Source: Tepidimonas ignava (GTDB lineage: Bacteria > Pseudomonadota > Gammaproteobacteria > Burkholderiales > Burkholderiaceae_C). From it: 64,000 nt of DNA. The stretch is from positions 1 through 64,000 of the forward strand of contig NZ_SMAH01000014.1 in assembly GCF_004342625.1 (NCBI RefSeq), given 5' to 3'. The translations under genes were made by a program, and so were the position numbers. The first letter of the stretch is position 1. The number at the start of each line of letters is the position of its first letter. Under the pieces are notes generated by a model. That model searched no databases, was not told the DNA's origin, and saw only the letters and a program-made list of their open reading frames with translations. Shown here in pieces: positions 26,904 to 41,716 of the stretch.

Positions 26904-29900
26904 TTAGCACGCCGGCGCGCTGGGCCGGATGCGGAACCACAGCGCGTACAGCGCCGGAACGAACAGCAGCGTGATGGCCGTGCCCACCGCCACGCCGCCG
27001 ATCAGCACGTAGGCCAATGGCCCCCAGAAGCTGTCGTGCGTCAGCGGCACGAACGCCAACACCGCCGCCAGTGCCGTCAGCACCACGGGCCGCGCCCGCT
27101 GCACGGCGGCTTCCACGACGCCCTCAAACGGCGCCATGCCCGCCTCGAAGTTGTCGGCCACCTGCTGCGTCAGGATCAGCGTGTTGCGCATCAAAATGCC
27201 CGCCAGACCGGTCAGGCCCAGCAGCGCCACGAAGCCAAACGGCTGCCAAAACACCAGCAGCGCCAGTACCGCGCCGATGAGCCCCAGCGGCGCCGTGGCC
27301 ACCACCATGAACGTGCCGGCAAACGAGCGCATCTGCAGCATGATGAACACGAGCATCGCGGCCACCATCAGCGGCTGCAGCTTTTGGATCGACAGGTTGG
27401 CCTTTTCAGACTGCTCGACCGAGCCACCGATGGCAACGCGGTAGCCCTCGGGCAGCTCGGCGCGCAGCGGCGCCAGCGCCTGCCAGACCGCCGCCGTGAC
27501 GTCGTTGGGCTGGGCGCCGCGCACCTCGGCCTGCACGGCCACGAACGGCTCGCGGTTGTAGCGCTTGATGACGGGCTCTTCGTAGCGCACCTCGAGCGTG
27601 CCCAATTGCGCCACCGGGATTTTGCGGCCGTCACGGTTGAGCACTTCCAGCGCCCCCAAGGTGTCGGCGCTGACGCGGCCGCCCTGCAGCGCGCCGCGCG
27701 CGGTCAGCTCTACCGTGCGGTTGCCCACGCGCAGTTGCGTCACCGGCGCGCCCTCCAGCAGGGTTTGCAGTTGTTGCGCCACGTCCTGGGGCGTCAGGCC
27801 CATCAGCCGCAAGCGGTCGGGGTCGGTGCGCAGCGCCAGCACCGGGACGCGCTCGTCCCACTCCAGGTGCGCATCGACCACATGCGGGTTGGCGGCCATG
27901 ATCTCGCGCACACGGTACCCGATGGCGCGCAGCTGCACCGGGTCGGGGCCAAAGACGCGGAACTGCACCGGCCAGGCCACCGGCGGCCCGTACAACAGCC
28001 GCGCCACGCGGATGCGCGCCTCGGCGAATTCGCCGCTGCGGATATGTTCTTCGAGCGTCGCGATGATACGGTCGCGCGCCGCTTCGTCGTGGGCGACGAC
28101 GATGAGCTTGCCAAACGCCGGGTTGGGCGGCTCGGGGTTGGCCGAGATGAAAAAGCGCGGCGCGCCCGCGCCGACGTAGGCCGACAGTGTTTTGACCTCG
28201 GGCATCGGCGCCAGGATGGCTTCGAGGCGGCGCACCGTCTGGTCGGTGACGCGCACGCTGGTGCCCTGCGGCAGGTACACGCTGACCAACACCTCGGTGC
28301 GGTCGCTGCTGGGGAAAAACTGCTTGGGCACGACTTTGGCCATGCCAATGGCCGAGATCACCAACAGGCCCACCGTGCCCGCCACCACCGTTTTGCGGTG
28401 CGTCACGCACCAGGCCACCACGGTGCGTAGCCGCTGGTACAGCGGGGTCTGGTAGATCCCTTCGTGGCTGTGGCGCTGCTCGGGCGGCACGTCGCGCAGC
28501 ATTTTGACGCCCAGGTAGGGCGTGAAGGTGACCGCCACCAGCCACGACACCAGCAGGCTCACGCCCAACACCCAGAAGATGTTGCCGGCGTATTCGCCCA
28601 CGCCCGAGCGGGCAAAGCCGATGGGCAAAAAGCCCGCCACCGTCACCAGGGTGCCAAACAGCATTGGCGCGGCGGTCACGTTCCAGGCGTGCGCGGCGGC
28701 GCGGATGCGGTCCCAGCCTTCTTCCATCTTCACCAACATCATCTCGACGGCGATGATGGCGTCGTCCACCAGCAGACCCAACGAAATGATCAGCGCCCCC
28801 AGCGTGATGCGGTCCAGGTTGATGCCCATGGCCTTGAACACCACGAACGACAACCCCAGCGTCACCGGCACCGCGATGCCGACGATGAGGCCGGCGCGCA
28901 GCCCGATGGCCAGCATGCTCACCCCCATCACGACCGCCACGGCGACGAAAAATTTGATCTGGAACAGGTCCACCGCCTTGGCGATGGCGTCGGCCTGGTT
29001 GGTGAGTTGGGTGAGCTCCAGCCCCAGGGGCAGCTCGGCCTTTTCGCGCTCCAGGTACGCTTGCAGACGCTGGCCGAGCTGCAGGCCGTTTTCGCCTTTG
29101 TTCATGACCACGCCGATGAGCACGGCGTCTTGCCCGCGCGCGCGCACGAGGTACGAGGGCGGCTCTTCGTAGCCGCGGCGGACGGTGGCGATGTCGCCCA
29201 GCCGGATCACTTTGCCGCCGGCGCGTATCGGCAGCGCGGCCAGCGCCTCGGGGTCGGACAGGTCGGCATCCAGCCGGATGTGCAGGCGCGGGCCGTCGGT
29301 TTCCAGCCGCCCGGTGGGCAGCAGCCGGTTGCTGGCGTCAATAGCTTCGAAAATGGCTTGCGGCGACAGCCCCAGGTTGACCAGCCGCGCGTTGTCGAAC
29401 TCCAGGTACACGCGCTGCGTGCGCTCGCCCAGGATCAGCGCCTTGTGCACGCCCTCGATGCGCTGGATCTGGTCGCGCAGCCGCTCGGCCTCGCGCACGA
29501 GTTCGTCGTGCGGTAGCTTGGGCGCGGTCAGCGCCAGCAGGCTGAAGTACACGTCGGCAAAGTCGTCGTTGGCCACCGGACCGATAACGCCGGCGGGCAT
29601 TTCGCGCTGCGCGTCCCACATGCGCTTGCGCACCTGGTAAAACAGCTCGGCCACCTTGGCCTGCGGGGTGTAGTCGTGAAACTCCACCTGCAGCGTGGCC
29701 TGCCCGGGGCGGATCGTGGTTTCGATGCGGTAGAGGTACTCGACCTCCTGGATTTTTTTCTCCAGCCGGTCCACCACCTGCGTTTGCAACTGCTCGGGCG
29801 TGGCGCCCGGCCAGGCGACGTTGACCTGCATCACCCGCACGGTGAACGAGGGGTCTTCGGCCCGCCCCAGCGTGGCAAAAGCGTACACGCCGCCCAACAC

Positions 29901-29972
29901 GGCCAGGATGAGGAAAAACAGCGTGACGGCGCGCTCGCGCACGGCCAGCGCCGACAGGTTCGGAAAGCTCAT
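26904..29972 (-). CDS. RND efflux transporter (AcrB/AcrD/AcrF family)
   Basis: This 1022-residue inner-membrane proton-driven exporter has twelve expected membrane segments. The first helix follows ALAVRERAVTLFFLILAVLGG and a central block runs through LQPLMVAAMLVFIMLQMRS. The first periplasmic part starts TLGRAEDPSFTVRVMQV, and GINLDRITLGALIISLGLLVDDAIIAVEMM (in two parts) includes the TM4 acidic residues of the proton relay. The start at 29972 is the conserved MSFPNLSALAVRERA. It overlaps the adaptor gene by 4 bases. No outer-membrane channel gene is adjacent. Substrates cannot be read. Confidence 0.92.
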   Translation of the reverse strand: MSFPNLSALAVRERAVTLFFLILAVLGGVYAFATLGRAEDPSFTVRVMQVNVAWPGATPEQLQTQVVDRLEKKIQEVEYLYRIETTIRPGQATLQVEFHDYTPQAKVAELFYQVRKRMWDAQREMPAGVIGPVANDDFADVYFSLLALTAPKLPHDELVREAERLRDQIQRIEGVHKALILGERTQRVYLEFDNARLVNLGLSPQAIFEAIDASNRLLPTGRLETDGPRLHIRLDADLSDPEALAALPIRAGGKVIRLGDIATVRRGYEEPPSYLVRARGQDAVLIGVVMNKGENGLQLGQRLQAYLEREKAELPLGLELTQLTNQADAIAKAVDLFQIKFFVAVAVVMGVSMLAIGLRAGLIVGIAVPVTLGLSFVVFKAMGINLDRITLGALIISLGLLVDDAIIAVEMMLVKMEEGWDRIRAAAHAWNVTAAPMLFGTLVTVAGFLPIGFARSGVGEYAGNIFWVLGVSLLVSWLVAVTFTPYLGVKMLRDVPPEQRHSHEGIYQTPLYQRLRTVVAWCVTHRKTVVAGTVGLLVISAIGMAKVVPKQFFPSSDRTEVLVSVYLPQGTSVRVTDQTVRRLEAILAPMPEVKTLSAYVGAGAPRFFISANPEPPNPAFGKLIVVAHDEAARDRIIATLEEHIRSGEFAEARIRVARLLYGPPVAWPVQFRVFGPDPVQLRAIGYRVREIMAANPHVVDAHLEWDERVPVLALRTDPDRLRLMGLTPQDVAQQLQTLLEGAPVTQLRVGNRTVELTARGALQGGRVSADTLGALEVLNRDGRKIPVAQLGTLEVRYEEPVIKRYNREPFVAVQAEVRGAQPNDVTAAVWQALAPLRAELPEGYRVAIGGSVEQSEKANLSIQKLQPLMVAAMLVFIMLQMRSFAGTFMVVATAPLGLIGAVLALLVFWQPFGFVALLGLTGLAGILMRNTLILTQQVADNFEAGMAPFEGVVEAAVQRARPVVLTALAAVLAFVPLTHDSFWGPLAYVLIGGVAVGTAITLLFVPALYALWFRIRPSAPAC

Positions 29973-31072
29973 GACGCGCGCTCCCGCACCGCCATGCCCG
30001 GCTGCAACAGGTGGGTGCCCAGCGCCACGATGCGATCCTGCGGCGCCAGCGGCGCCACCACCAGCGCCTGCCGGTCGTCCACACGCAGCACGCGCACCGG
30101 CACCGCCTCCAGCTTGCCTTCGCGCACGCGCCACACGCGCGGCCCTTCGGCGCGCTCGTCCAGCGCCCCCACGGGCACGACCCAGGCCGCAGCACCGGCT
30201 GCGGGTGCGGGGGCCGTCGGCGCGGAGGTGGGCGCGTTCGGGCCCGCCAGCCGCACCGCCACCACGCTGCCCAGCGGCAGCTCGGCCGGCAGGTCCGGCG
30301 CCCGGTAGCGTGCGCGGCGCGTGCGGCCCAGCGGGTCCACGACCGGGGCGGCCTCGCGCAGCGTCAGCGCGACGCTGTGTCCACCGGGCAACTGCGCCTC
30401 GCCACGCGGCGGGGGCGTCACGCCGTCGGGCAACTGCACCTCGACTTCGCGCGCGCCCGCCTGGGCCAGTGTGGCCACCGGCTGCCCCGCCGCCACCACC
30501 TGTCCGGGCTGGCCGGTGACGTCGGTCAGCACCCCGTCGGCGGGGGCACGCAGCGCCGCGTAGCCGCGGTTGTTGCGCACCTGCGCCAGCCGCGCCTGAG
30601 CGGCGTCGCGGCGGCTGGCGGCCTCGCGCGCGCTCAACTGGGCGCGCTCCAGCGCTTGCGCGCTGACAAAGCTTTGCGCCTGCAGCGCGCGCACGCGGTC
30701 CAGGTCGGCCTGCGCGGTGCGGGCGGCGGTTTCGGCGGCGGCCAGGTCGGCTTCGGCGGCGCGCACGGCTTGCTCCAAGTCGGCCGCGTCGAGCTCGAAC
30801 AGCACCTGCCCCGCGCGCACGGCCTGCCCCGCATCCGCGTGGCGCTTGACGATGCGTCCGCCGACTTGGAACGCCAGCGGCGCTTCGATGCGCGCGCGCA
30901 CGGTGCCCGAAAGCCCCAAGGCCTGGCCGCCGAGCGGGCGCGGCGCTGCGGTCACGACCCAGGGGCGTTCGTCGGCGCTGGTCGCGCGTTCTGGGGCACG
31001 CTGGCACCCCAGCAGCGCCGTGGCCAGCAGCGCAACGGCAACGATCGACACTCGCAACCGCTCCATGGACAT
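29969..31072 (-). CDS. RND periplasmic adaptor lipoprotein (membrane fusion protein)
   Basis: This 367-residue adaptor has a lipoprotein signal ending LLATALLGCQR, so the mature N-terminal Cys is lipidated. A lipoyl/barrel-sandwich half-motif follows (PLAFQVGGRIVKRHADAGQAVRAGQ), with a long helical hairpin at about residues 100-165 and a second half-motif RAPADGVLTDVTGQPGQVV. It connects the RND pump to an outer-membrane channel encoded elsewhere. GGAG lies 6 bases before the ATG at 31072. It diverges from the tetR gene across a 52-base operator region. Confidence 0.92.
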   Translation of the reverse strand: MSMERLRVSIVAVALLATALLGCQRAPERATSADERPWVVTAAPRPLGGQALGLSGTVRARIEAPLAFQVGGRIVKRHADAGQAVRAGQVLFELDAADLEQAVRAAEADLAAAETAARTAQADLDRVRALQAQSFVSAQALERAQLSAREAASRRDAAQARLAQVRNNRGYAALRAPADGVLTDVTGQPGQVVAAGQPVATLAQAGAREVEVQLPDGVTPPPRGEAQLPGGHSVALTLREAAPVVDPLGRTRRARYRAPDLPAELPLGSVVAVRLAGPNAPTSAPTAPAPAAGAAAWVVPVGALDERAEGPRVWRVREGKLEAVPVRVLRVDDRQALVVAPLAPQDRIVALGTHLLQPGMAVRERAS

Positions 31073-31094
31073 ATCTCCGCGTTGGGTGTGGAAT

Positions 31095-31120
31095 ATTAGT
31101 GAACGGTATCGTACACTAAT
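31095..31120. promoter_or_regulatory. probable TetR operator
   Basis: ATTAGTG (31095-31101) and CACTAAT (31114-31120) form a perfect 7-bp inverted repeat with a 12-base centre, midway between the divergent tetR and efflux adaptor genes. TACACT at 31112-31117 inside it is a possible -10 for tetR with only 7 bases to the ATG. Autorepression and repression of the pump are inferred. Confidence 0.7.
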
Positions 31121-31124
31121 TGAT

Positions 31125-31799
31125 ATGTCCACACCGCTTGTTGCCGTTGCCTGTGGGTGCCACCCCGCGCCCGGGCGTCCGATGGACGTGCGCAAAGACG
31201 CGGCGATCCTGCACGCAGCGCGCCGCTTGCTGCTGCAGGGCGGCCCGGCCCAGTTGACGATGGAGGCGGTGGCGCAGGCCAGCGGCGTGTCCAAGGCGAC
31301 GCTGTACCGCCGCTGGCCTGACCGCGACGCCTTGCTGCGCGCCCTGGTGGCGCACGAGGCCGCGCCGCTGCTGCACACGCTGCACACCGTGCCACCCGAT
31401 GAGGAAGCGCTGGTGCGGGCGTTGGTGCGTTTTCTCGATGGGCTGCTGTGCTTCGTGACGCGACCCGCGTACCGCCGCTACCTGCAGGCCGTGGCGGCGC
31501 TGCCGCAGCGGCGCGCCGATTTGCAGCGCATCTGGCACCTGGGGCCGCAGCAGGCGGTGGACGAAGTGGCGGCGCTGCTGCAGCGCTACGCCGTGCAGCG
31601 CGGGGCGCGCTGCAACGACGCGGTACGCGAAGCGGAAACCCTGATCGGCATGGCCATGGGGTTGGACATGGCGCGCGTGCTGTACCAACAGCCACCACGG
31701 CACGGCCGCGCGGCGGCGCGGCGCAGCCATTTGGCGTGGGTGGTGCGGCGGTTTGTGGCGGGGTTGGTGTTCAGCGGCGGGCCAGTGGTGCGACCGTAA
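31125..31799 (+). CDS. TetR family transcriptional regulator
   Basis: This 224-residue regulator has an N-terminal helix-turn-helix (LTMEAVAQASGVSKATLYRR near residues 46-65) followed by WPDRDALLRALV, typical of TetR. The C-terminal ligand domain is not family-specific. It is divergent from the RND adaptor and very likely represses the pump by binding the inverted repeat between them. An alternative ATG at 31182 would remove 19 poorly conserved residues. Confidence 0.9.
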   Translation: MSTPLVAVACGCHPAPGRPMDVRKDAAILHAARRLLLQGGPAQLTMEAVAQASGVSKATLYRRWPDRDALLRALVAHEAAPLLHTLHTVPPDEEALVRALVRFLDGLLCFVTRPAYRRYLQAVAALPQRRADLQRIWHLGPQQAVDEVAALLQRYAVQRGARCNDAVREAETLIGMAMGLDMARVLYQQPPRHGRAAARRSHLAWVVRRFVAGLVFSGGPVVRP

Positions 31800-31847: not shown

Positions 31848-33509
31848 TTACCACAGGCTCAGCTGCCCGGGCGCGGCCACAGGGCGGCGGCGTGTCGCGG
31901 GTTCGCGGCCTTGGCCGTCGCGGCCAGCGGGCATACCGCGGCGCGAGCCGTGCCGTTGCACGATGGCTTGCGCTTGCACGCGCATGCCGGGTCGGTTGCG
32001 CCAGGCGTGCAGGCGTGCTTTGGCCTGCCGCAACGCTTCGTCCAGCGCCACCGGTGGCACGGGCCAGTCGATGCCGAGGCGTACGCCGCAGGTGGCTTGC
32101 ACGCTGGCCGGCATGCGCCAGGGCTCGAACAGCCAGGCGTCGGGCACACGACGCAGCGCCGGCAACCAGTGGCGCACGAAGACGCCGTGGGGGTCGTGGT
32201 CCAGCGCCTGTTTGACAGGGTTGTAGACCCGCGTGGCGTTGATGCCGGTGGTGCCGGACTGCATTTGCATCTGCGGCCAGTGGATGCCGGGTTCGTAGTC
32301 CAAAAACAGCTGCGCCAGCCACACGCCCACCGGTCGCCAGTGCAGCCACAGCGGGTACGCCGCCACCGACACAAGCATGGCGCGCATGCGGAAGTTGAGC
32401 CAGCCGGTGTGCCGCAGCATGGCCACGCAGGCATCCACCAGCGGCCAGCCGGTGCGGCCCTGGTGCAGGGCCTCGAGGTGCACGGGGTTGCCGTCGTGCT
32501 CGCGCAGGCCGTCGTAGCCGCGGTGCAGGTTGTGGTGTTCGAGCGCGGGCTCGCTTTCCAGCTTCTGGATGAAGTGACAGTGCCAGTACAGGCGGCTCTC
32601 AAACGCGCGCAGCCCGGCCAGCAGACGGCGGGCGTGCGCGGTGTCGGGGTCGGCGTTGTCACGGCCGCGGGGCGCCGCGGCCAGGGCTTGCGCCTGGGTG
32701 CGCGTGGCCTGCACGGTCTCGCGCAGGCTCAGCACGCCGTACGCCAGGTACGGCGACAGGCGTGAGCAGGCGGTGGGCGCGCTCAACGGCGACGAGATGC
32801 CGCCGCGGTACTGCGCCGCGCGCGTGTGCAGAAAGCTGTGCAGCGTGGCCTGCGCGGCGCTGCGGCCGCCGCGCTGACGCGCCGGAGGCTCCCACGGATC
32901 CAAGCCCAGCGCCTGCGCCGTGGGCCAGGGTTGCGGCTGCCAAGCGCCGTCGCCGCTCAGGCGCCACGCCACGGGGTCCAGCCCCGCGGGCGTGGGCAAG
33001 GGCCACGGGGCAAACGCGAGTTCAGCGGGTGGCCAGGGCGCCAGCGGCGCCGCCATCAGCCGTTCACGCGCGGCCAGCCATTGGTCGCGGTCACGCAGGC
33101 CGCGCACGACGCCGAACTGCGGCACCTCGTGCACCGCCACGCCGTGCGCGCGGGCCCAGCGGCGCACGGCGCGGTCGCGCGCAAACGTCCACGCGTTGCC
33201 TGTTTCCTCGTGGGCGTGGATGGCCGCCATGCCCAACGTGCGGTGCAGGGCTTGCAGCACGGGCACGGCGTGGCCAACCAGCACGTGCAGCCGGGCATGG
33301 GGCCGTCCGCTGGCCCGCAGGGCCGCGTCCAGCTCGAGCAGACTTTCACGGATGAAGCCCCAGTGTTGGGCGGCGGCTTCGGGCTGCTGCCACAGGTCCG
33401 GCTCGACGATGTACACCGGCAGCACCGGGCCGCCGCGCGCCGCGTGCGCCAGGGCGGCGTGATCCTGCACCCGCAGGTCGCGCTTGAACCACACGAGTTG
33501 CACGGCCAT
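31848..33509 (-). CDS. phr: deoxyribodipyrimidine photolyase/cryptochrome family protein
   Basis: This 553-residue protein has an N-terminal antenna Rossmann domain (VQLVWFKRDLRVQDHAALA, residues 3-21) and a C-terminal FAD-binding helical domain. The latter is marked by GGISSPLSAPTACSRLSPYLA, SRLYWHCHFIQKLE, TGWPLVDACVAMLRHTGWLN (in two parts) and YEPGIHWPQMQMQSG. Such enzymes use blue light to split pyrimidine dimers. The Shine-Dalgarno GGAGG precedes the ATG. It is the last gene of the nine-gene operon divergent from the LitR/CarH-like regulator. The extreme C-terminus is GQLSLW, close to a beta-clamp-binding motif. Confidence 0.9.
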   Translation of the reverse strand: MAVQLVWFKRDLRVQDHAALAHAARGGPVLPVYIVEPDLWQQPEAAAQHWGFIRESLLELDAALRASGRPHARLHVLVGHAVPVLQALHRTLGMAAIHAHEETGNAWTFARDRAVRRWARAHGVAVHEVPQFGVVRGLRDRDQWLAARERLMAAPLAPWPPAELAFAPWPLPTPAGLDPVAWRLSGDGAWQPQPWPTAQALGLDPWEPPARQRGGRSAAQATLHSFLHTRAAQYRGGISSPLSAPTACSRLSPYLAYGVLSLRETVQATRTQAQALAAAPRGRDNADPDTAHARRLLAGLRAFESRLYWHCHFIQKLESEPALEHHNLHRGYDGLREHDGNPVHLEALHQGRTGWPLVDACVAMLRHTGWLNFRMRAMLVSVAAYPLWLHWRPVGVWLAQLFLDYEPGIHWPQMQMQSGTTGINATRVYNPVKQALDHDPHGVFVRHWLPALRRVPDAWLFEPWRMPASVQATCGVRLGIDWPVPPVALDEALRQAKARLHAWRNRPGMRVQAQAIVQRHGSRRGMPAGRDGQGREPATRRRPVAAPGQLSLW

Positions 33510-33520
33510 CGCGCGGCCTC

Positions 33521-33994
33521 CTACCGGGGCAGCGGGGCCGCGGCGCGGCGCTTGAGCCAGCGCATGCACGCCCCGAGGCCCGGCCACTGTTCGTACAGCT
33601 CCTCGGCGGCGTCCCAGTAGTCGCGGTGCTCGCTGATGCGACCGTCCGGCGCGAAGCGCCAGTGCGTGCAGCCGCGGATGGGCCGCGGCTGGCGCTGGCC
33701 GCGCCAGCGGAACGTGAATACCCAGGTCACGAAGCCCTGGCGTGCGTCGCCCAGGCGATCGTGCACCACGAAGCGGGGTTGGTCCAGCTGCTGGTGCATG
33801 TGCTCGAAGATGGCGCGGATGGCGCTGAGGCCCTGCACCTCGTGAAACGGGTCTTTGAAGCGTGCGTCGTCGGTGAACATGCGGTCCAGGTGCACGAGCG
33901 CCGCGGGGGTGAGCGTTTCGAAAAAATCGACGGCGCGCACGAGCGGCGCCGCGTTGGGGTCGCCGGTGAAGGGGGATGCGATGGGGGTGCTCAT
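33521..33994 (-). CDS. SnoaL-like/NTF2-fold protein
   Basis: This 157-residue NTF2-like protein has a domain starting VDFFETLTPAALVHLDRMF near residues 22-40 and containing DDARFKDPFHEVQG and ISEHRDYWDAAEELYEQ. This is the SnoaL-type set seen in genes next to photolyase and Cfa in many proteobacteria. The fold usually gives a small enzyme or binding pocket; the reaction is unknown. It lies 2 bases after the SDR gene and 11 before phr, so it is co-transcribed. Confidence 0.82.
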   Translation of the reverse strand: MSTPIASPFTGDPNAAPLVRAVDFFETLTPAALVHLDRMFTDDARFKDPFHEVQGLSAIRAIFEHMHQQLDQPRFVVHDRLGDARQGFVTWVFTFRWRGQRQPRPIRGCTHWRFAPDGRISEHRDYWDAAEELYEQWPGLGACMRWLKRRAAAPLPR

Positions 33995-33996
33995 CT

Positions 33997-34767
33997 TCAC
34001 AAGCCCGTGACGCGGTGGATGAGGGCGAAGTAGGCACGGTCGGGCAGCCAGCGCAGGGCGCGCAGCACGCTGGTGAAGCGACGCGGAAAGTGGATGTGAA
34101 ACGCGCCGCGCGCCCAGCCGCGCAGCATGGCCTGCGCGGCCTGCTCGGGGGTGATGAGCGCCGGCATGCGAAAGGTGTTGTGCGCCGTCAGCGGCGTGGC
34201 AACGAAGCCGGGGCTGATCACACTGACCCCCAGCCCACGCGGACGCAGGTCCAAAAACAGCACCTCGGCCAGGTTGGTCAGGGCGGCCTTGGTGGGGCCG
34301 TAGGCCAGCGCCTGCGGCAGGCCACGGTAACCCGCCACGCTGCCTACCAGGCTGAGGTGGCCGTGGCCCTGGGCAAGCAGCCTGGGCACGCACGCGGCCA
34401 TCGTGTGCAGCACGCCCTCGACGTTGATGCGCTGGTGCCGCAGCAGCTCGTCGGTGTCGATGGCGGTGGCGCGCATGGGGCGGTAGTGCCCGGCGCACAG
34501 CAGCACCAGGTCCAGCGCGCCGCCAGCGAAGGCGTGGGCGGCGGCGTGCTCGACCGCCTCGCGGTCCGTGACGTCCAGCGGCAGGGCGTGGCGGCCCGGT
34601 GCAGCGGCGGCCCAGGCGTGCAGGGCATCGGCCTGGCGGGCCGAGACGATGACGCGGGCGCCACGCGCGTGCAGCGCATCGGCCACCGCCCGCCCGATGC
34701 CTGACGAGGCGCCGATGATCCACGCGCGCCGTCCGCCCCAGTCGCGCAACGGTGGGTTCAAGCTCAT
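33997..34767 (-). CDS. short-chain dehydrogenase/reductase
   Basis: This 256-residue classical SDR has the cofactor motif GASSGIGRAVADAL near residues 17-30, LVLLCAGHY near 90 (the NAG equivalent), catalytic Ser in LSLVGSVAGYRG and Y-x3-K in AYGPTKAAL near residues 155-163. The substrate is unknown; the operon context suggests a lipid or acyl ketone or alcohol. It overlaps the DUF3833 gene by 4 bases. Confidence 0.88.
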   Translation of the reverse strand: MSLNPPLRDWGGRRAWIIGASSGIGRAVADALHARGARVIVSARQADALHAWAAAAPGRHALPLDVTDREAVEHAAAHAFAGGALDLVLLCAGHYRPMRATAIDTDELLRHQRINVEGVLHTMAACVPRLLAQGHGHLSLVGSVAGYRGLPQALAYGPTKAALTNLAEVLFLDLRPRGLGVSVISPGFVATPLTAHNTFRMPALITPEQAAQAMLRGWARGAFHIHFPRRFTSVLRALRWLPDRAYFALIHRVTGL

Positions 34768-35321
34768 GGTTCCAGCTTGGTGAAGGTCAGCGTCACCTCG
34801 CCGAGCCGGATGCCCCATTTGCGCATCGTGGCGCGGTTGAGCATGACGCGCTCGTCGATCAGGTACATCCAGTCGTCGAACTGCACCTCGTACACCGTGC
34901 CATCGACCGGCAAGCGCAGGGTGTAGCGCCAGTTAAAGGCAGGGCCCCGCGCCTGTCCGCTGGCCTGGCCCACCACGTCGTCGGCCGTGCCGCGGTAGCG
35001 GCCATCGCCGTCGTCCACCAGACGCCACACACGCCGCTCGGTCTTGCCGTCGCTGTAGGTGAAGCGTTCGTCCAGCACGCCCTGGTTGCCGTTCCACGTG
35101 CCGGTCATGTCGACCACGAAACGGCGCACCACCCGCCCGCTGCGGTCCTGGAACATGCCGTGCGCCAGCAGCCGGCCATTGAAATAGGTTTTGAGGTCCA
35201 GCGCGGGGCGCTCGTCAGCGTAGGTTTCGACAGGGGGTGCGGCGCAGCCGGCCAACAGCCAGCCGGCCCCGACGGCCAGCAGCCCACAGCACAGACGGCG
35301 CGAGGCGGCGGTGTTGCGCAT
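34764..35321 (-). CDS. DUF3833 lipoprotein
   Basis: This 185-residue protein has a lipobox-type signal (LAVGAGWLLAGCAAPP, cleavage before Cys near residue 26) and a DUF3833 domain: LKTYFNGRLLAHGMFQDRSG, FVVDMTGTWNGNQG and FDDWMYLIDERVMLNRATM. It should be anchored to a membrane on the periplasmic side. DUF3833 genes often accompany Cfa-like genes; the fold may bind lipids, but the function is unproven. It overlaps the SDR gene by 4 bases. Confidence 0.87.
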   Translation of the reverse strand: MRNTAASRRLCCGLLAVGAGWLLAGCAAPPVETYADERPALDLKTYFNGRLLAHGMFQDRSGRVVRRFVVDMTGTWNGNQGVLDERFTYSDGKTERRVWRLVDDGDGRYRGTADDVVGQASGQARGPAFNWRYTLRLPVDGTVYEVQFDDWMYLIDERVMLNRATMRKWGIRLGEVTLTFTKLEP

Positions 35322-35340
35322 ACGTATCCAACCTCCGGGG

Positions 35341-36633
35341 TCAAACGGGTGGCGCCATGGGCGGCACGGGGGCGGGTCGGTGGTGGTGGCGCCCCAACCC
35401 TTGCCACAGCCACCAGGCCGCCAGCGCCTTGACGCCGCAGGGCAGCACGGCGTAAGCCCACGTCAGGGCTTGCAGGCCGGCGGGGTCGCGCGTGCCGGGC
35501 GTGTAGCCCAGCAGCTCGAGCACGGGCAGCGCCACGCCTGCGGCCAGCGCGAGGTTGCCCTTGGCCGCCAGGTTCCACCAGCCGAAGTACGCCCCCTCGC
35601 GCTGCCCGCGGTCGCCGACGTCGGCCACGACGTTGGCCAACAGCGCCGCCGGCAGCGCCAGGTCGGCGCCCAGCGCCGCCCCTGACAGCACGCACACCCA
35701 CGCGAACGCCGCCACATCGCCCGCGTCCAGCGTGGCCGTCCAGCCGAACACCCCGATGGACAGCAGCATGCCCGTCAGCCACGCACGCGCCACCCCCACG
35801 CGTCGCACCCACGCCAGCCACAGCGGCATGGCGGCCGCGGCGGCTACGAAGTACGCGGCCAGCAGCCACGGTGCGGCGTGCGCCGCCTGCAGGCGGTCGC
35901 CGACATAAAACAGCACCAAGGTGGCCGGGATGGCGCTGGCCAGTCCGCTGAGCACGAACACCCCCATCAACCACCGAAACGCCGGTCGGCGCCAGGGCAG
36001 GCCCAGCTCGGCCATGGGGGCGGCAGGGGCGCCCGGGCGGCCCGTGGCCGGTCGCGGAGCGCGCGTCCAGGCGAGCCAGCCGGCCAGCAGCAGCCCCGCC
36101 AGCACGGCCAAGGTCAGGTCCCAGCCGGCCAGCGTGGGCAGCACCGACGCGGTGACGACGCCGACGAGCGTGCAGCCTTCGCGCCAAGCGACGATGCGCG
36201 CCTGCTGCGCCGCGTCACCCCCCAGCCGCGCGCCCCAGCTTTGATGCGCGATGGTCAGCACGCTGTACGCCAGCGTGGTCGCCACCACGCACGCCAGCGC
36301 CCACCACGCCAACGCACCGGACGCCAGCGCCGGTGGCCGCAGCAGCGCCGCCATGCCGCACCACAGCAGCAGCGCCGTTGGCCACGCCAAACGCAGCACG
36401 GCCGCTGCGCCACGGCGGAACACGCGATCCAGCCCGCGCCCGATCAGCGGGTCGGTCAGCGCGTCGGCCACGCGGGCCACCAGCAGCACCCCGCCCAGCG
36501 CAGCCAACGGCACCCCCAGCGTGGCGTAGTGGTGGGGCACGTGCACGTAGAGCGGCAACGCCGCGAACGCCAGCGGCAGGCCGGGCAGGCCGTAGCGCCA
36601 GCCGTGGGCGGTGGGGTCAGCCGCTGCGCTCAT
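35341..36633 (-). CDS. MFS transporter (sugar:cation symporter-like, MFS_2)
   Basis: This 430-residue membrane protein has about 12 hydrophobic segments. The N-terminal part has LPLAFAALPLYVHVPHHYA and RVADALTDPLIGRGLDR, typical of the MFS_2 (glycoside-pentoside-hexuronide) group, where an Asp in this loop is conserved. In this operon it more likely moves a lipid or lipid precursor than a sugar, which is inference. The start overlaps the stop of the chalcone-isomerase-like gene by 4 bases. Confidence 0.85.
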   Translation of the reverse strand: MSAAADPTAHGWRYGLPGLPLAFAALPLYVHVPHHYATLGVPLAALGGVLLVARVADALTDPLIGRGLDRVFRRGAAAVLRLAWPTALLLWCGMAALLRPPALASGALAWWALACVVATTLAYSVLTIAHQSWGARLGGDAAQQARIVAWREGCTLVGVVTASVLPTLAGWDLTLAVLAGLLLAGWLAWTRAPRPATGRPGAPAAPMAELGLPWRRPAFRWLMGVFVLSGLASAIPATLVLFYVGDRLQAAHAAPWLLAAYFVAAAAAMPLWLAWVRRVGVARAWLTGMLLSIGVFGWTATLDAGDVAAFAWVCVLSGAALGADLALPAALLANVVADVGDRGQREGAYFGWWNLAAKGNLALAAGVALPVLELLGYTPGTRDPAGLQALTWAYAVLPCGVKALAAWWLWQGLGRHHHRPAPVPPMAPPV

Positions 36634-37256
36634 CGGGCCGCAGCCTGGGCAGGCGGTTGGCCCAGCAGCGCCTGGCGCAGCTCGGGCGCCGAGGTCGTGG
36701 GAGCCAACCAGATGCCAAAAAAGCGCCACGCGAAGCGCGCGTCGGCGACCTCGCCCAGCATGCGGCTGCGCCCGCCGGCGCCGGTGAACACGAAACGCGC
36801 CCCCCAGCCAGGCAGCCACAACCCGGCGATACGGTCCCCGGGCGCCACATCGGGGAAGATGCCCCGCATCGCGTCCAACCAAGCGGCTTCGTCTGCTGGC
36901 GCCAAGGGCTCGGCGCGACGCATTTCCAGCACCGACCGCTGGGCGATGTCGGCCCCCCGAAAACGCCGCTGGTACGTCAACTCCAACACCAGCGGCGCGC
37001 GTCCCAGGTCGTCGGGTTGCCAGCCGGGCGGGGCCAGCAGCCGCGCGTGGTACACCGTCAGACCCAGGTACCGCAGGGTGCCCGCCCCCACCAGCCGCGC
37101 CTCGGGCAACCAGTCGGCAACCGCGGCGGCTGCGCCAGGGGCGCTTGGCTCGTGCTGCGCCGAGGCCAGCGCCGCAGGCGTGCACGCCCAGGTCAGCAGC
37201 GCGCACGCCAGGGCGCATGCGCGCTCACGGTTTGACCAGCGTGACTTGCACCACAT
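36630..37256 (-). CDS. chalcone isomerase-like secreted protein
   Basis: This protein of about 208 residues has an N-terminal signal peptide (ACALACALLTWACTPAALASA) and a chalcone isomerase-like domain with LVGAGTLRYLGLTVYHARL, LELTYQRRFRGADIAQRS and FFGIWLAPTTSAPELRQALLG. Bacterial relatives are fatty-acid-binding or periplasmic proteins rather than flavonoid enzymes. The start is uncertain: the ATG at 37256 overlaps the cfa-like gene by 32 bases and leaves a basic n-region before the hydrophobic core. Confidence 0.78.
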   Translation of the reverse strand: MWCKSRWSNRERACALACALLTWACTPAALASAQHEPSAPGAAAAVADWLPEARLVGAGTLRYLGLTVYHARLLAPPGWQPDDLGRAPLVLELTYQRRFRGADIAQRSVLEMRRAEPLAPADEAAWLDAMRGIFPDVAPGDRIAGLWLPGWGARFVFTGAGGRSRMLGEVADARFAWRFFGIWLAPTTSAPELRQALLGQPPAQAAAR

Positions 37257-38460
37257 CGATGTCGCCGGCGTCGAAGCCAGCCTCGCAGTAGGCCAGGTAA
37301 AAGTGCCACAACCGCACAAAACGCTCGTCAAAGCCTTGCGCGCGCACGGCGTCGCGCTGGCCGTCGAACGCGGCGCGCCAGCGGCGCAAGGTTTCGGCGT
37401 AGTCGCCCCCAAAGGCCACCATGTCGGCCATCTGCAGCCCGACGCGGCGGGCCTGGCGTTCGAGCTCGCCGCGGCTCAACAGGCAGCCCCCGGGAAAGAT
37501 GTATTGTTGGATGAAGTCGCTGCCGCGCAGGTAGTCGTCAAAAAGCTCGTCGCGGATCACGATGGCCTGGATGCAGGCCCGCCCGCCGGGGCGCAGCAGC
37601 CGCTGCAGCGTGCCAAAGTAGGTTGGCCAGTACGCGCGGCCGACCGCTTCGATCATTTCGATCGAGACGATGGCGTCGTAGGGGCCGTCGTCGATGTCAC
37701 GGTAGTCCTGCAAGCGCAGCTGCACCCGGTGGCTCAGCGCCGCGTGGGCGATGCGTTGCATGGCGTGCGCCAGTTGCTCGCTGGACAGCGTGACGCCGGT
37801 GACCTCGACGTCGAACTCGCGTGCCGCCAGCTCCGCCAGTGCGCCCCAGCCGCAGCCGATGTCCAGCAGCCGCTGGCCCGGCCTGAGCGCGCAGGCGTGC
37901 AAGGCGCGGCGCATTTTGGCGTGCTGGGCTTGCTCCAGCGGCTGGCTGCGGTCACCCCCGAACCACGCCGCCGAGTAGCTCATCGTGTCGTCCAGCCACA
38001 GGCGGTAAAAGCCATTGCCCAGGTCGTAGTGGGCGTGGATGTTGCGTCGGCTGCCACGGCGGGTGTTGCGGCGCAGCCAGTGCCTCACCCGGTGCAGCAG
38101 CCGCGCGCCCCAGTGCCCGTGCAGCGCGCCACCCAGCGCCGCGCGGTTGGCCAGCGCCAGGCGCAGCAGCGCCACCACGTCGGGCGAGGACCACTGCCCG
38201 CGCAGGTAGCCCTCGGCCAGGCCGATGTCGCCATGCCGCAGCACCGCCCCTGCCACGCTCCAGTCATGCAGATCCAGCCGCGCCGCGGGGGTGCCGTGGC
38301 CCAGGCACAACGTGACCCCTTGCGGGGTGTGCAGCTCCAGCGTGCCGTGCTGCAACCGCTGCAGCAAGCGCAGCAGGATCCGGCCGGCGGGCGGCGCGTG
38401 GCGCCACGCGGGTGTCCCGTCGTCACCGGTGCGAAAGGAGGGCGCGGTCAGTGTGCTCAT
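37225..38460 (-). CDS. cyclopropane-fatty-acyl-phospholipid synthase family methyltransferase
   Basis: This 411-residue Cfa-family SAM methyltransferase acts on membrane phospholipid acyl chains. Visible are HYDLGNGFYRLWLDDTMSYS, the SAM site LLDIGCGWGALAELAARE, VTGVTLSSEQL, DAIVSIEMIEAVG and FIQQYIFPGGCLLS. In Rhodobacter, related enzymes controlled by the photo-oxidative response take part in methylated and furan fatty-acid synthesis. Whether this one makes cyclopropane rings or methylated chains cannot be told from sequence. It starts at the last base of the DUF1365 gene. Confidence 0.9.
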   Translation of the reverse strand: MSTLTAPSFRTGDDGTPAWRHAPPAGRILLRLLQRLQHGTLELHTPQGVTLCLGHGTPAARLDLHDWSVAGAVLRHGDIGLAEGYLRGQWSSPDVVALLRLALANRAALGGALHGHWGARLLHRVRHWLRRNTRRGSRRNIHAHYDLGNGFYRLWLDDTMSYSAAWFGGDRSQPLEQAQHAKMRRALHACALRPGQRLLDIGCGWGALAELAAREFDVEVTGVTLSSEQLAHAMQRIAHAALSHRVQLRLQDYRDIDDGPYDAIVSIEMIEAVGRAYWPTYFGTLQRLLRPGGRACIQAIVIRDELFDDYLRGSDFIQQYIFPGGCLLSRGELERQARRVGLQMADMVAFGGDYAETLRRWRAAFDGQRDAVRAQGFDERFVRLWHFYLAYCEAGFDAGDIDVVQVTLVKP

Positions 38461-39287
38461 CAAGGGCTCCAAGGGGCCAGGGTGGGTTGTTGCCGGGTGA
38501 CGTGCACGGCCGGCGCTGCAGGGGTGTGAAACCACGGCACCCCGCGGCGCCACAGTTGCAGCGCCTGCCAGTGGATGCGTGCCATCACCGCCGCGCTGTG
38601 CCAGCCGTGGCGCAGCAGCAGCCGCACGGCTTCGCGCGGCTGCGCCGGCTGCAAAGCGCCCGACAGGCTGGTCAACAGCAGGGCGCCGGCGGCGTCGCGG
38701 TACTCGACACGCGCCACGATGCGCTGCGGCGGCGCGCCGTCCAGCGGCGTGCGCAAAAAACGAAACGCGTAGCCACCCTCCACGCGCGCAAACGGCGACA
38801 CGTGCATGGTTTTGGGGGCGTACAGCGTGCGTCCCCAGGCGGGCGCGTCCAGCAGGTAGCAGTGACGTTGACCAAAGGTGTTGTTGACTTCGGCCACGAT
38901 GGCGCGCAGCGTGCCATCGGCGCGGTGGCAGTACCAAAAACTGACCGGTTTGAACACGTAGCCCAAGACCCGCAGGTACGTCTGCAACCACACCGGGCCG
39001 TCGGCGTCGGCGATGCCGTGGGCGGCCAGCAGCTCGCGCAGCCAGGCCAGCGCGCCGCCGGCGGCAGGGCTGCGCCCGTCGCCGTGGTCACGTTCGTCGA
39101 AGGCCACCCAGCCCGGACGGTTGAGCGCGAGCCCCGCGCGGGCGGCGGCCTCGGGCAACACGTGCATCGGCAGCAGGGCGAACCACGTCCGGTACCCGAA
39201 GCGGTGGGGCTGGGGGCGCAGCCGCTGGTGCTGCACCCAGCCGCGCCCAATCAGCACCGGGTCGGGTGGGGTGGGGCGGCTGGCCAT
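38460..39287 (-). CDS. DUF1365 family protein
   Basis: This 275-residue protein has the DUF1365 pattern: GWVQHQRLRPQPHRFGYRTWF near the start, LRVLGYVFKPVSFWYCHR, EVNNTFGQRHCYLL and APKTMHVSPFARVEGGY. DUF1365 genes lie beside an FAD oxidoreductase and a Cfa-like gene in many bacteria, and the three are thought to work on the same lipid, but the chemistry is not established. It lies 24 bases after the FAD oxidoreductase gene. Confidence 0.9.
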   Translation of the reverse strand: MASRPTPPDPVLIGRGWVQHQRLRPQPHRFGYRTWFALLPMHVLPEAAARAGLALNRPGWVAFDERDHGDGRSPAAGGALAWLRELLAAHGIADADGPVWLQTYLRVLGYVFKPVSFWYCHRADGTLRAIVAEVNNTFGQRHCYLLDAPAWGRTLYAPKTMHVSPFARVEGGYAFRFLRTPLDGAPPQRIVARVEYRDAAGALLLTSLSGALQPAQPREAVRLLLRHGWHSAAVMARIHWQALQLWRRGVPWFHTPAAPAVHVTRQQPTLAPWSP

Positions 39288-39311
39288 CGTGCGGTGCTCC
39301 TAACCCCGGCC

Positions 39312-40616
39312 TCAGGCGGCGGCGCGCAGCCGGCCCAGCGCGGCCAGGCAGGCGTCGGCCGCGGCGTAGCCCGCCTGCAGCCCGTCTTCGTGAAACCCGT
39401 AGCCAGCCCACGCCCCGGCGTACCAGGTGCGCGCATGCCCCTGCAGGTGGGGCAACTGGCGCTGCGCCGCCACGGCGGCGTGGTCCAACACCGGATGCTC
39501 GAACGTGAAGGTGTCCAGCACCCGCCGGGGGTCGATGGGACCTTGGGGGTTGAGCGATTCGATCACCGGCTGGGCAAACGGCAGCGGCTGCAGCGCGTTG
39601 AGCCAGTAGTGCAGGCACACGTGGCCGCGCCCCGCGGCGTGGGGGGTGTGCTCGTAGTTCCACGCGGACCACACCGAGCGGCGGCGCGGCATGACGCTGG
39701 TGTCGGTGTGCAGCACGGCGTGGTTGCGCTGGTAGCGAATCGCGCCCAGCACCGCACGCTCCTGGGGTGAGGGGGAGGCCAGCAGCGCCAGCGCTTGGTC
39801 GGTGTGCGTGGCCAACACGACGGCATCGAAGCGGGCGGCGCCGGTGTCGGTGTGCACGGTGACCCCGAAGTCATCGCGCACGATGCGGCGCACCGGCGTG
39901 CGGGCGTGGGCGTGCGGCAGCCGCGCGACGATGCGCTGCACGTACTGGCGGGCGCCGCCGGCCACCGTGTACCAGGTCGGCCGGTCGTTGATTTGCAGCA
40001 AGCCGTGGTTGTGGCAAAAGCGCATCAACATGCCGACCGGGAAGTCCAGCATCCGCTCCGTGGGGCAACTCCAGATGCTGCCCAGCATCGGCAACAGGTA
40101 CCAGTCGCGCAACGCCGTGCTAAAGCGGTGCCGCCGCAAAAACGCCCCCAGCGGCTCGTCCCACGGCGCCGCGCCGTGGTCGCCCAGCGCCAGCGCGGTG
40201 CCCAGGCGGTTGAAGCGCGCGATGTCGGCCAGCATGGCCCAAAAGCGCGGTCGCAACAGGTTGCGCTTGTCGGCAAACACGGTGGCCAGTGAGGCCCCGC
40301 CCCACTCCAGCGCGGGGTGGCCCGCTGTGGCCGGCACGCGCACCGAAAACGACATGCTGGCCGGTGCGGTGGGCACCTGCAGTTGCGCCAACAGCGCGGT
40401 CAGCCCGGGGTAGGTGCGGTGGTTGAAGACCAAAAACCCGGTGTCGACGGGGTGGGTGAGCGGCCGGCCGCGGTGGTCGGGCAACGTGACGTCCACCGTG
40501 CGCGTGTGCCCGCCGAAGGTCGGGGCGGCTTCGAACAGCCACACCTGCGCGCTGCGGTGCAAACGCCATGCCGCCGCCAGACCACTGATGCCGGATCCGA
40601 TGATGGCGACGCGCAT
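39312..40616 (-). CDS. FAD/NAD(P)-binding amine-oxidase-like oxidoreductase
   Basis: This 434-residue flavoprotein begins MRVAIIGSGISGLAAAWRL (dinucleotide-binding GxGxxG) and FEAAPTFGGHTRTVDV, the pattern of flavin-containing amine oxidase and phytoene-desaturase relatives. Later blocks are DTGFLVFNHRTYPGLTAL, AVVLATHTDQALAL and AGAWAGYGFHEDGLQAG. It is the first gene of the nine-gene operon; AGGAG lies upstream. It probably desaturates or oxidises an acyl chain modified by the Cfa-like enzyme, as proposed for related genes in Rhodobacter. That role is inference. Confidence 0.87.
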   Translation of the reverse strand: MRVAIIGSGISGLAAAWRLHRSAQVWLFEAAPTFGGHTRTVDVTLPDHRGRPLTHPVDTGFLVFNHRTYPGLTALLAQLQVPTAPASMSFSVRVPATAGHPALEWGGASLATVFADKRNLLRPRFWAMLADIARFNRLGTALALGDHGAAPWDEPLGAFLRRHRFSTALRDWYLLPMLGSIWSCPTERMLDFPVGMLMRFCHNHGLLQINDRPTWYTVAGGARQYVQRIVARLPHAHARTPVRRIVRDDFGVTVHTDTGAARFDAVVLATHTDQALALLASPSPQERAVLGAIRYQRNHAVLHTDTSVMPRRRSVWSAWNYEHTPHAAGRGHVCLHYWLNALQPLPFAQPVIESLNPQGPIDPRRVLDTFTFEHPVLDHAAVAAQRQLPHLQGHARTWYAGAWAGYGFHEDGLQAGYAAADACLAALGRLRAAA

Positions 40617-40684: not shown

Positions 40685-40717
40685 TTGTGTCCTAGACAAA
40701 AATCCATGCGATGATCA
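40685..40717 (-). promoter_or_regulatory. candidate operator/promoter between litR-like gene and the photo-operon
   Basis: The 122-base divergent region contains TTGTGTCCTAGACAA at 40685-40699, with TTGT and ACAA arms. On the minus strand TGATCA (40717-40712) and TAGG (40694-40691) are spaced by 17 bases, reminiscent of the ECF sigma-E pattern TGATCC-N17/18-TAAG of photo-oxidative stress promoters. Either reading is tentative. Confidence 0.3.
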
Positions 40718-40738: not shown

Positions 40739-41716
40739 ATGTCTGAGCAGCAACCCTCCGATGCCTCGTCCACCGACCAAGCCCCAACGTGGACGATTGC
40801 CGATGTCGAGCGCGACACCGGCATCGGCAAAGACACGTTGCGTGTCTGGGAGCGGCGCTACGGCTTTCCCCGCCCGGGGCGGGACGCCCATGGCGACCGG
40901 TGTTACGACACCGCCCAGGTGCAGCGCTTGCGCCTGATCCGGCGCTTGTTGGATTTGGGCCACCGTCCGGGGAGGGTGGTGGGCTTGCCGCTGACGGCGC
41001 TGCAGGACCTGGCCGCGCGCGGGCCGCGCGTGGCGCCGTCCACCGCGCCGACACCGCCACACGCGCAGGCAACCGTGCTGGCGCAGTGGCTCGGTTGGCT
41101 GGAGGCGGACCAGGGCGAGCGCGTGCAACAGGCGCTGCGCGCGTCGCTGCAGCAGCACGGGCTGGCGCAAACCGTGCAAACGTTGGTGGCGCCGATGTGT
41201 GTGGCGGTGGGTGAGGCGTGGGCCCAAGGCCGCCTTGGCGTGTACCAGGAGCACCTGTGGACCGAGGTGGTGCAGCGCACGCTGCGCGAGGCGATTGCGG
41301 CGCTGGATGCGGCGCCGGGCACGCCCAAGCAGGCGCCACGGGTGTTGTTGACCACCACGCCCGGTGAGCCCCACCTGTTGGGGTTGCTGATGGCGGAGTG
41401 TTTTTTGGCGCTGCAGGGGTGCGAGCGTGTGGTGCTGGGGGCGCAAACCCCGCTCATCGACATCGTGACGGCGGCGCGGCGCCTGGCGGTGGACGTGGTG
41501 GGCCTGAGCTACAGCGCCTACGTGGGCCGCCGCGACCTCGTCGACGAGCTGGTGCAGCTGCGCACACGGCTGCCCGACAACGTGGCGCTGTGGGTGGGCG
41601 GCGCTGGCGCGCAGCGCCACGGCCGCGCGTTGCCCCCGGGGGTGGACGTGGTGGCCCAGGCGGGCGACGTGGCGCGGCGGGTGCACGCCTGGCGTGCCCG
41701 TCATCGAGCGGCCTGA
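40739..41716 (+). CDS. litR: MerR-type regulator with B12-binding domain (LitR/CarH-like photoreceptor)
   Basis: This 325-residue protein has a MerR DNA-binding domain (WTIADVERDTGIGKDTLRVW, residues 18-37; WERRYGFPRP) and a C-terminal cobalamin-binding region. The four-helix part has W161 followed nine residues later by E171-H172 in WAQGRLGVYQEH, the W-x9-EH signature of adenosylcobalamin light sensors. GEPHLLGL with H212 is the probable lower axial ligand, and WVGGAGAQ lies near the end. In the dark such proteins bind DNA as tetramers; light cleaves the Co-C bond and releases DNA. CarH His132, just after Trp, is Ala here. It diverges from the photolyase/lipid operon, its likely target. Confidence 0.88.
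   Translation: MSEQQPSDASSTDQAPTWTIADVERDTGIGKDTLRVWERRYGFPRPGRDAHGDRCYDTAQVQRLRLIRRLLDLGHRPGRVVGLPLTALQDLAARGPRVAPSTAPTPPHAQATVLAQWLGWLEADQGERVQQALRASLQQHGLAQTVQTLVAPMCVAVGEAWAQGRLGVYQEHLWTEVVQRTLREAIAALDAAPGTPKQAPRVLLTTTPGEPHLLGLLMAECFLALQGCERVVLGAQTPLIDIVTAARRLAVDVVGLSYSAYVGRRDLVDELVQLRTRLPDNVALWVGGAGAQRHGRALPPGVDVVAQAGDVARRVHAWRARHRAA

Follow-up and report, generated by a model that had tools for sequence, protein, structure and literature searches.

A furan-fatty-acid and photolyase operon beside a B12-type LitR regulator in Tepidimonas: a likely light or photo-oxidative-stress programme

Tepidimonas ignava is a heat-loving freshwater betaproteobacterium with a genome of 2.7 Mb. We analysed a 64,000-nucleotide stretch of this genome (the window; contig NZ_SMAH01000014.1, positions 1 to 64,000), in which nine open reading frames on the minus strand (31848–40616) lie divergent from a gene encoding a LitR/CarH-like regulator (litR, 40739–41716, plus strand). 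An earlier note, made from the sequence alone, had described these frames as one operon under a divergent light-type sensor. The frames, their strand, the claimed gaps of −32 to +24 bases and the Pfam families were all confirmed; in the order from ufaD to phr, the gaps are +24, −1, −32, −4, +19, −4, +2 and +11 bases. The sensor also held up, since the regulator carries a MerR helix-turn-helix, a four-helix B12-binding_2 domain and a Rossmann B12-binding domain (Pfam), which is the complete class I LitR/CarH domain set, and a conserved predicted operator lies in the divergent gap.

By family assignment, the first three genes of the operon form a complete furan-fatty-acid pathway. They encode a ufaD-like FAD/NAD oxidoreductase, the putative fatty acyl desaturase (39312–40616, on the minus strand like all the operon genes; Amino_oxidase/NAD_binding_8 in Pfam), a ufaO-like DUF1365 protein assigned to the furan-forming oxygenase step (38460–39287; PF07103, 242 bits), and a ufaM-like acyl methylase dependent on S-adenosylmethionine, which belongs to the Cfa family but shows an E/A/Q fingerprint instead of the Cfa active site (37225–38460; CMAS, 286 bits). 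The first two belong to families described in PMC7380195, according to which Rhodobacter UfaM (Cfa-like), UfaD (FAD/NAD) and UfaO (DUF1365) suffice to produce a furan fatty acid from 18:1. The Cfa-like and FAD genes had already been proposed to be of the furan-fatty-acid type, and their families do match the Rhodobacter pathway (PMC7380195); DUF1365, encoded together with the UfaD-type protein in the window operon, corresponds to UfaO, the third step, which had been missed, so that three genes are explained and not two.

These genes are followed by those for a chalcone-isomerase-like (CHI-like) protein with a predicted signal peptide (chi, 36630–37256), whose ATG overlaps ufaM by 32 nt, an MFS_2/GPH-type transporter (35341–36633; PF13347, 148 bits), a DUF3833 lipoprotein with the lipobox LAGC (34764–35321; PF12915, 244 bits), a short-chain dehydrogenase/reductase (SDR, 33997–34767; PF00106, adh_short), a SnoaL_2/NTF2-like protein (33521–33994; PF12680) and a DNA photolyase/cryptochrome family protein (phr, 31848–33509; PF03441 and PF00875). 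The CHI-like gene scored 25.9 bits against Chalcone_3, just below the cut-off of 27. That of T. sediminis is also slightly under the cut-off, but most relatives tested clearly exceed it, with 37–54 bits. The operon photolyase fell below every NCBIfam cut-off, its best PDB matches were plant cryptochromes, and it is 34% identical to a second photolyase encoded in the genome (G000:C4:11331-12761).

The co-location of the operon genes is far from chance. We collected 80 Burkholderiales loci through DUF1365, with one genome per species, and found ufaD and ufaM in all 80, SDR in 72, chi in 69, DUF3833 in 67, and MFS and SnoaL in 63 each, in a nearly always constant gene order. The photolyase is found at the operon end solely in loci with litR next door. 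T. sediminis and T. alkaliphilus, the nearest named relatives, share with T. ignava the entire operon together with the lysR-gph-fbp genes that flank it (81–97%), and the 32-nt ufaM/chi overlap recurs in both of the other Tepidimonas loci and in Azoarcus. A near relative with 97% identical flanks (L186, G009:C11:6500-12500) has lost litR and all nine genes, leaving a scar with remnants of phr, snoaL and litR. The block can therefore be dispensed with, and it was lost as a whole.

The best PDB match of the window LitR was CarH (E 6e-30). The protein contains the motifs Wx9EH (WAQGRLGVYQEH) and ExHx2Gx41SxSx27GG, and Wx9EH and ExHxxG are kept in 29 of 29 LitRs (the window protein and 28 relatives); an adenosyltransferase gene is present in the genome. 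The name PhrR, used for a TyrR-family regulator in one paper and for a Vibrio MerR factor in another, was not adopted. The gap between litR and ufaD contains the sequence TTTGTCTAGGACACA (40686–40700, minus strand), which has one mismatch to the palindrome TTTGTCYWRGACAAA. Allowing up to two mismatches, this palindrome was present in the gap of all 16 loci in which no more than 400 bp separate litR from ufaD, in only 5 of the 50 litR-less loci (Fisher p 2e-11) and in none of 3160 shuffled regions. From this comparison, we infer that the palindrome is the LitR operator. The window operator is the sole exact TTTGTCYWRGACA in the 2.7-Mb genome, which suggests that LitR acts locally; a match with one mismatch at C20:12576 falls within the reading frame of a lysozyme-like protein and was not counted as a regulon member. 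The operator follows a CATACAAT-like −10 box in several of the Comamonadaceae loci that have litR close to ufaD. In some other loci litR is 0.7–2 kb away from ufaD, several of them with a glutathione peroxidase gene in between, and most of these have the box near litR. The Pseudomonas-type TGTACA operator was discarded, as no TGTAYA site occurs within 250 bp upstream of ufaD.

We consider it likely that this operon is a furan-fatty-acid and photolyase programme that responds to light or photo-oxidative stress under the control of LitR. Light induction, the repressor sign, the furan lipid product and the envelope role are proposed for Tepidimonas. In the dark, LitR loaded with adenosylcobalamin (AdoCbl) would occupy the palindrome in the divergent gap as a repressor and keep the operon silent; light would break the Co–C bond, release LitR and turn the operon on. 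UfaM would then methylate phospholipid 18:1 chains at their double bond, with no closure of a cyclopropane ring, UfaD would introduce a second double bond, and UfaO would add O2 to give the furan ring, the expected products being furan fatty acids of the 9M5 type. Furan fatty acids have been proposed elsewhere as singlet-oxygen scavengers. The photolyase would be co-produced against UV damage. For the CHI-fold protein of the periplasm, the DUF3833 lipoprotein and the GPH/MFS transporter, a role in binding or moving modified or oxidised envelope lipid is probable; the SDR and SnoaL proteins probably process a by-product.

A light-induced cluster of this kind has already been published, and the Tepidimonas operon is therefore a variant of it: P. 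mendocina has a nine-gene polycistron with phrB, an SDR, an FAD protein, ufaM and hypothetical genes, in which phrB and ufaM are induced 25- to 33-fold by light (PMC9758184). The pmlR1/pplR1-phrB-ufaM systems of P. mendocina and P. putida share with Tepidimonas a LitR-family regulator, a photolyase, an SDR, an FAD protein, ufaM and the polycistronic organisation; however, they use a class II LitR devoid of the B12 Rossmann domain, a LOV protein partner and TGTACA-N12-TGTACA sites (PMC9758184), whereas the Tepidimonas LitR is of the B12 type, has the Rossmann domain, is associated with a different palindrome and falls outside class II. In R. sphaeroides, the same families for the three furan steps, a GPH transporter, an SDR and a photolyase gene numbered next to ufaM are distributed over two loci, RSP1091-1087 (ufaD-ufaO-GPH symporter-RSP1088-SDR) and RSP2144/2143 (ufaM/phrA), which belong to the sigma-E/ChrR regulon (PMC7380195, PMC7074977); Tepidimonas differs in having a single operon beside LitR, additional CHI-like and SnoaL genes and no ChrR match in the genome. 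A parallel in layout is plasmid pAZKH of Azoarcus sp. KH32C (L185), with a divergent litR, the order ufaD-ufaO-ufaM-chi-MFS-DUF3833-SDR-NTF2, an exact operator and the 32-nt overlap but, unlike Tepidimonas, no photolyase at the end. Thermus thermophilus CarH has the same MerR and AdoCbl-binding architecture with Wx9EH and ExHxxG, and differs in its direct-repeat operator, its carotenoid target and the presence of His132. What is new here is thus the B12-type LitR, the different operator, the CHI-like and GPH genes, the union of ufaD-ufaO-ufaM and phr in one unit, and the lack of a ChrR match.

Since the operon methylase belongs to the CMAS family, the locus could also be read as an ordinary cyclopropane/acid-stress system to which a photolyase was added, with the Cfa-like enzyme producing cyclopropane chains. 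An alignment against E. coli Cfa, tabulated for 82 operon copies and 17 canonical Cfas, showed that E, A and Q replace Cfa G236, H240 and H266 in 82 of 82 operon UfaMs, whereas the canonical residues are kept in all 17 Cfas, including a separate one encoded in the T. ignava genome. Glu236 and Gln266 were also found in 13 of 13 UfaM-type proteins across the phylum, and the position of Cfa Cys139 is occupied by Ser, Ala or Gly in the operon UfaMs. The bicarbonate ligands of Cfa are E239, H266 and Y317 (PMC11387697); within the set formed by these residues and Cys139, the window UfaM has Gln for H266 and Ala for C139. Because the H266Q change removes a bicarbonate ligand, the operon UfaMs are probably not cyclopropane synthases, and the alignment can reasonably be read as a loss of ring closure. 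Cyclopropane chains, which had been listed among the possible products of this gene, are accordingly unlikely, and with UfaD and UfaO families as the partner genes, we regard the acid-stress explanation as highly improbable.

The regulatory side of the proposal has to be weighed against two other schemes. In a cross-family sample of 20 loci, one per family (19 other families and the Burkholderiales genome G014), the module has rpoE-chrR as its neighbour in eight cases and litR in two, never the two together, and TGATC-N17/18-CGTA-type promoters were present in 5 of the 6 chrR-linked loci tested. In G014 (L239, G014:C1:3239000-3256000), ufaD-ufaO-ufaM are next to rpoE-chrR; ufaO is split into two frames in this genome (a possible frameshift), and the locus does not include DUF3833. 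Together with the Rhodobacter precedent (PMC7074977), these arrangements would favour singlet-oxygen control through sigma-E/ChrR, the MerR-type neighbour being incidental. For T. ignava this is very unlikely: the family model TIGR02451, the only one used, found no ChrR in its genome or in 10 Tepidimonas relatives, and the gap holds the LitR palindrome and no sigma-E-type promoter (a TGATC at the right distance by eye was rejected for want of a CGTA box and of a ChrR match). Judging from these gene neighbourhoods, the furan-fatty-acid output is conserved and the sensor around it has been exchanged. Several features of the locus do weigh against a CarH-like light switch. The −10 region beside the window operator is poor compared with the CATACAAT of relatives; the CarH equivalog model scored 139 against a cut-off of 400; in the CarH motif ExHx2Gx41SxV/Tx22-27GG the spacing is exact (x41, x27), but the third residue is Ser and not Val/Thr; and the position of T. 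thermophilus CarH His132 has no His in 29 of 29 LitRs. In Thermus CarH, His132 is needed for efficient break-up of the tetramer, and the H132A protein remains mostly tetrameric in the light (PMC10442372). This would suit a LitR that binds AdoCbl and forms no bis-His photoproduct, reporting B12 (or redox) status and not light, with the operon as a general membrane-oxidation programme. However, the His132 position varies among natural B12 photoreceptors, and those without His still photoconvert (PMC11796333); in addition, the photolyase joins the operon beside litR only, and light induction is known for related LitR-linked clusters (PMC9758184). We consider B12-status sensing improbable. The His132-less clade (40739–41716 and its 28 relatives) would be a natural test of whether light release needs the bis-His photoproduct.

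The earlier note had also hinted at an undescribed lipid modification and transport pathway at the envelope. A sequence search of the PDB with profiles of the CHI-like and DUF3833 proteins returned nothing useful, and for this reason folds were compared, using AlphaFold2 models (plasmid sequences excluded from the input alignments) with predicted local distance difference test scores of 89.0 and 90.6, respectively. The CHI-like model matched chalcone isomerases, CHI-like proteins and plant fatty-acid-binding proteins with Z 13.5–16.4 (best match Z 16.4, 158 residues, 2.5 Å), and unrelated folds did not exceed Z 4.4; the predicted structure has the chalcone-isomerase/fatty-acid-binding (CHI/FAP) fold. 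The DUF3833 model forms a barrel of ten strands and resembles nitrobindin, CpeS-type lyases, OssO/OlmO spirocyclases and FABP-type barrels (Z 8–16), which identifies it, as modelled, as a calycin-like barrel lipoprotein; its lipobox C26 is invariant, and it is probably anchored in the outer membrane. Weak matches to phosphatidylethanolamine-binding proteins and ThreeFoil were set aside, as neither is among the listed fold matches. Both proteins may bind lipid in the envelope, although a shared fold is no proof of lipid binding, and in many other families their genes remain side by side without the MFS gene. The predicted folds lend some support to a binding or transport role. Lipid modification by the MFS, DUF3833 and SDR proteins was not supported: deletion of R. 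sphaeroides RSP1087-1089 left the fatty-acid profile unchanged (PMC7380195, PMC7074977), and this set, annotated as SDR, hypothetical protein and GPH-family symporter (PMC7074977), parallels the SDR, DUF3833 and MFS_2 genes of the window. That the CHI-fold protein, DUF3833 and the GPH/MFS transporter constitute a dedicated, light-signalled carrier chain conveying furan or oxidised acyl chains through the envelope is a tentative and rather doubtful proposal.

Other observations concern the surroundings of these genes. Many conjugative resistance plasmids of Klebsiella contain DUF3833; in two such loci (L189, L184) an IS5-family transposase precedes it, and one of the two has the gene for the tRNA desulfidase RudS beside it. 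RudS (DUF523/DUF1722) is often near the ufa/phr module across families (L221, L223, L226, L228, L231, L232), a neighbourhood that links near-UV tRNA repair to the module (compare PMC11417400). The region just downstream of the operon (26904–31799) encodes an RND efflux permease with a membrane-fusion protein, as well as a divergent regulator of the TetR-like type, which is convergent with phr.

In litR-less Comamonadaceae loci, an element of about 100 nt (~103) is present directly upstream of ufaD (L058:8484-8589, L043:8538-8640, L242:1434-1533 and others), and the host genome has its own copy (L250, G000:C7:136609-136732). It comprises a closing stem (GUUGCGAAGC/GCUUCGCAAC), two inner hairpins and a terminator U-run; a loop, CUCCUCCCUCCCUCUC, is complementary to the Shine-Dalgarno sequence (anti-Shine-Dalgarno CUCCUCCC), and an ECF-like promoter box, GGAACTT-N16-CACTC, precedes the element. 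RNAalifold predicted a three-way junction with eight pairs showing two-sided changes, several of the sequences being close relatives. Rfam gave no match to the element at its cut-offs, and none within the window. Of 200 order-level genomes searched with a covariance model, 7 gave a copy; six of these 7, the host among them, belong to the family of the window organism. In the host, the element adjoins gst-purB, the site that in other genomes has the arrangement gpx-RNA-[ufa operon]-gst-purB. The operon therefore occupies at least two chromosomal sites, the RNA remaining at the gst-purB one. We propose this gpx/gst/purB element of Comamonadaceae as a candidate new structured RNA family.

These results supply a concrete predicted operator for LitR-linked furan-fatty-acid operons, and the E/A/Q active-site signature offers annotators a way to distinguish UfaM from genuine cyclopropane synthases. 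The least explained part of the operon, and its best target, is the pair of CHI-like and DUF3833 proteins, which resemble lipid carriers; if the carrier chain were true, furan lipids would exert their effect farther out than the inner membrane. In Rhodobacter, furan fatty acids are tied to ChrR turnover, so that the absence of ChrR from Tepidimonas, if true, would mean that furan lipids must matter for something besides this turnover. The locus shows the furan-fatty-acid programme to be a conserved output, coupled by bacteria to light or oxidant sensors of different kinds.

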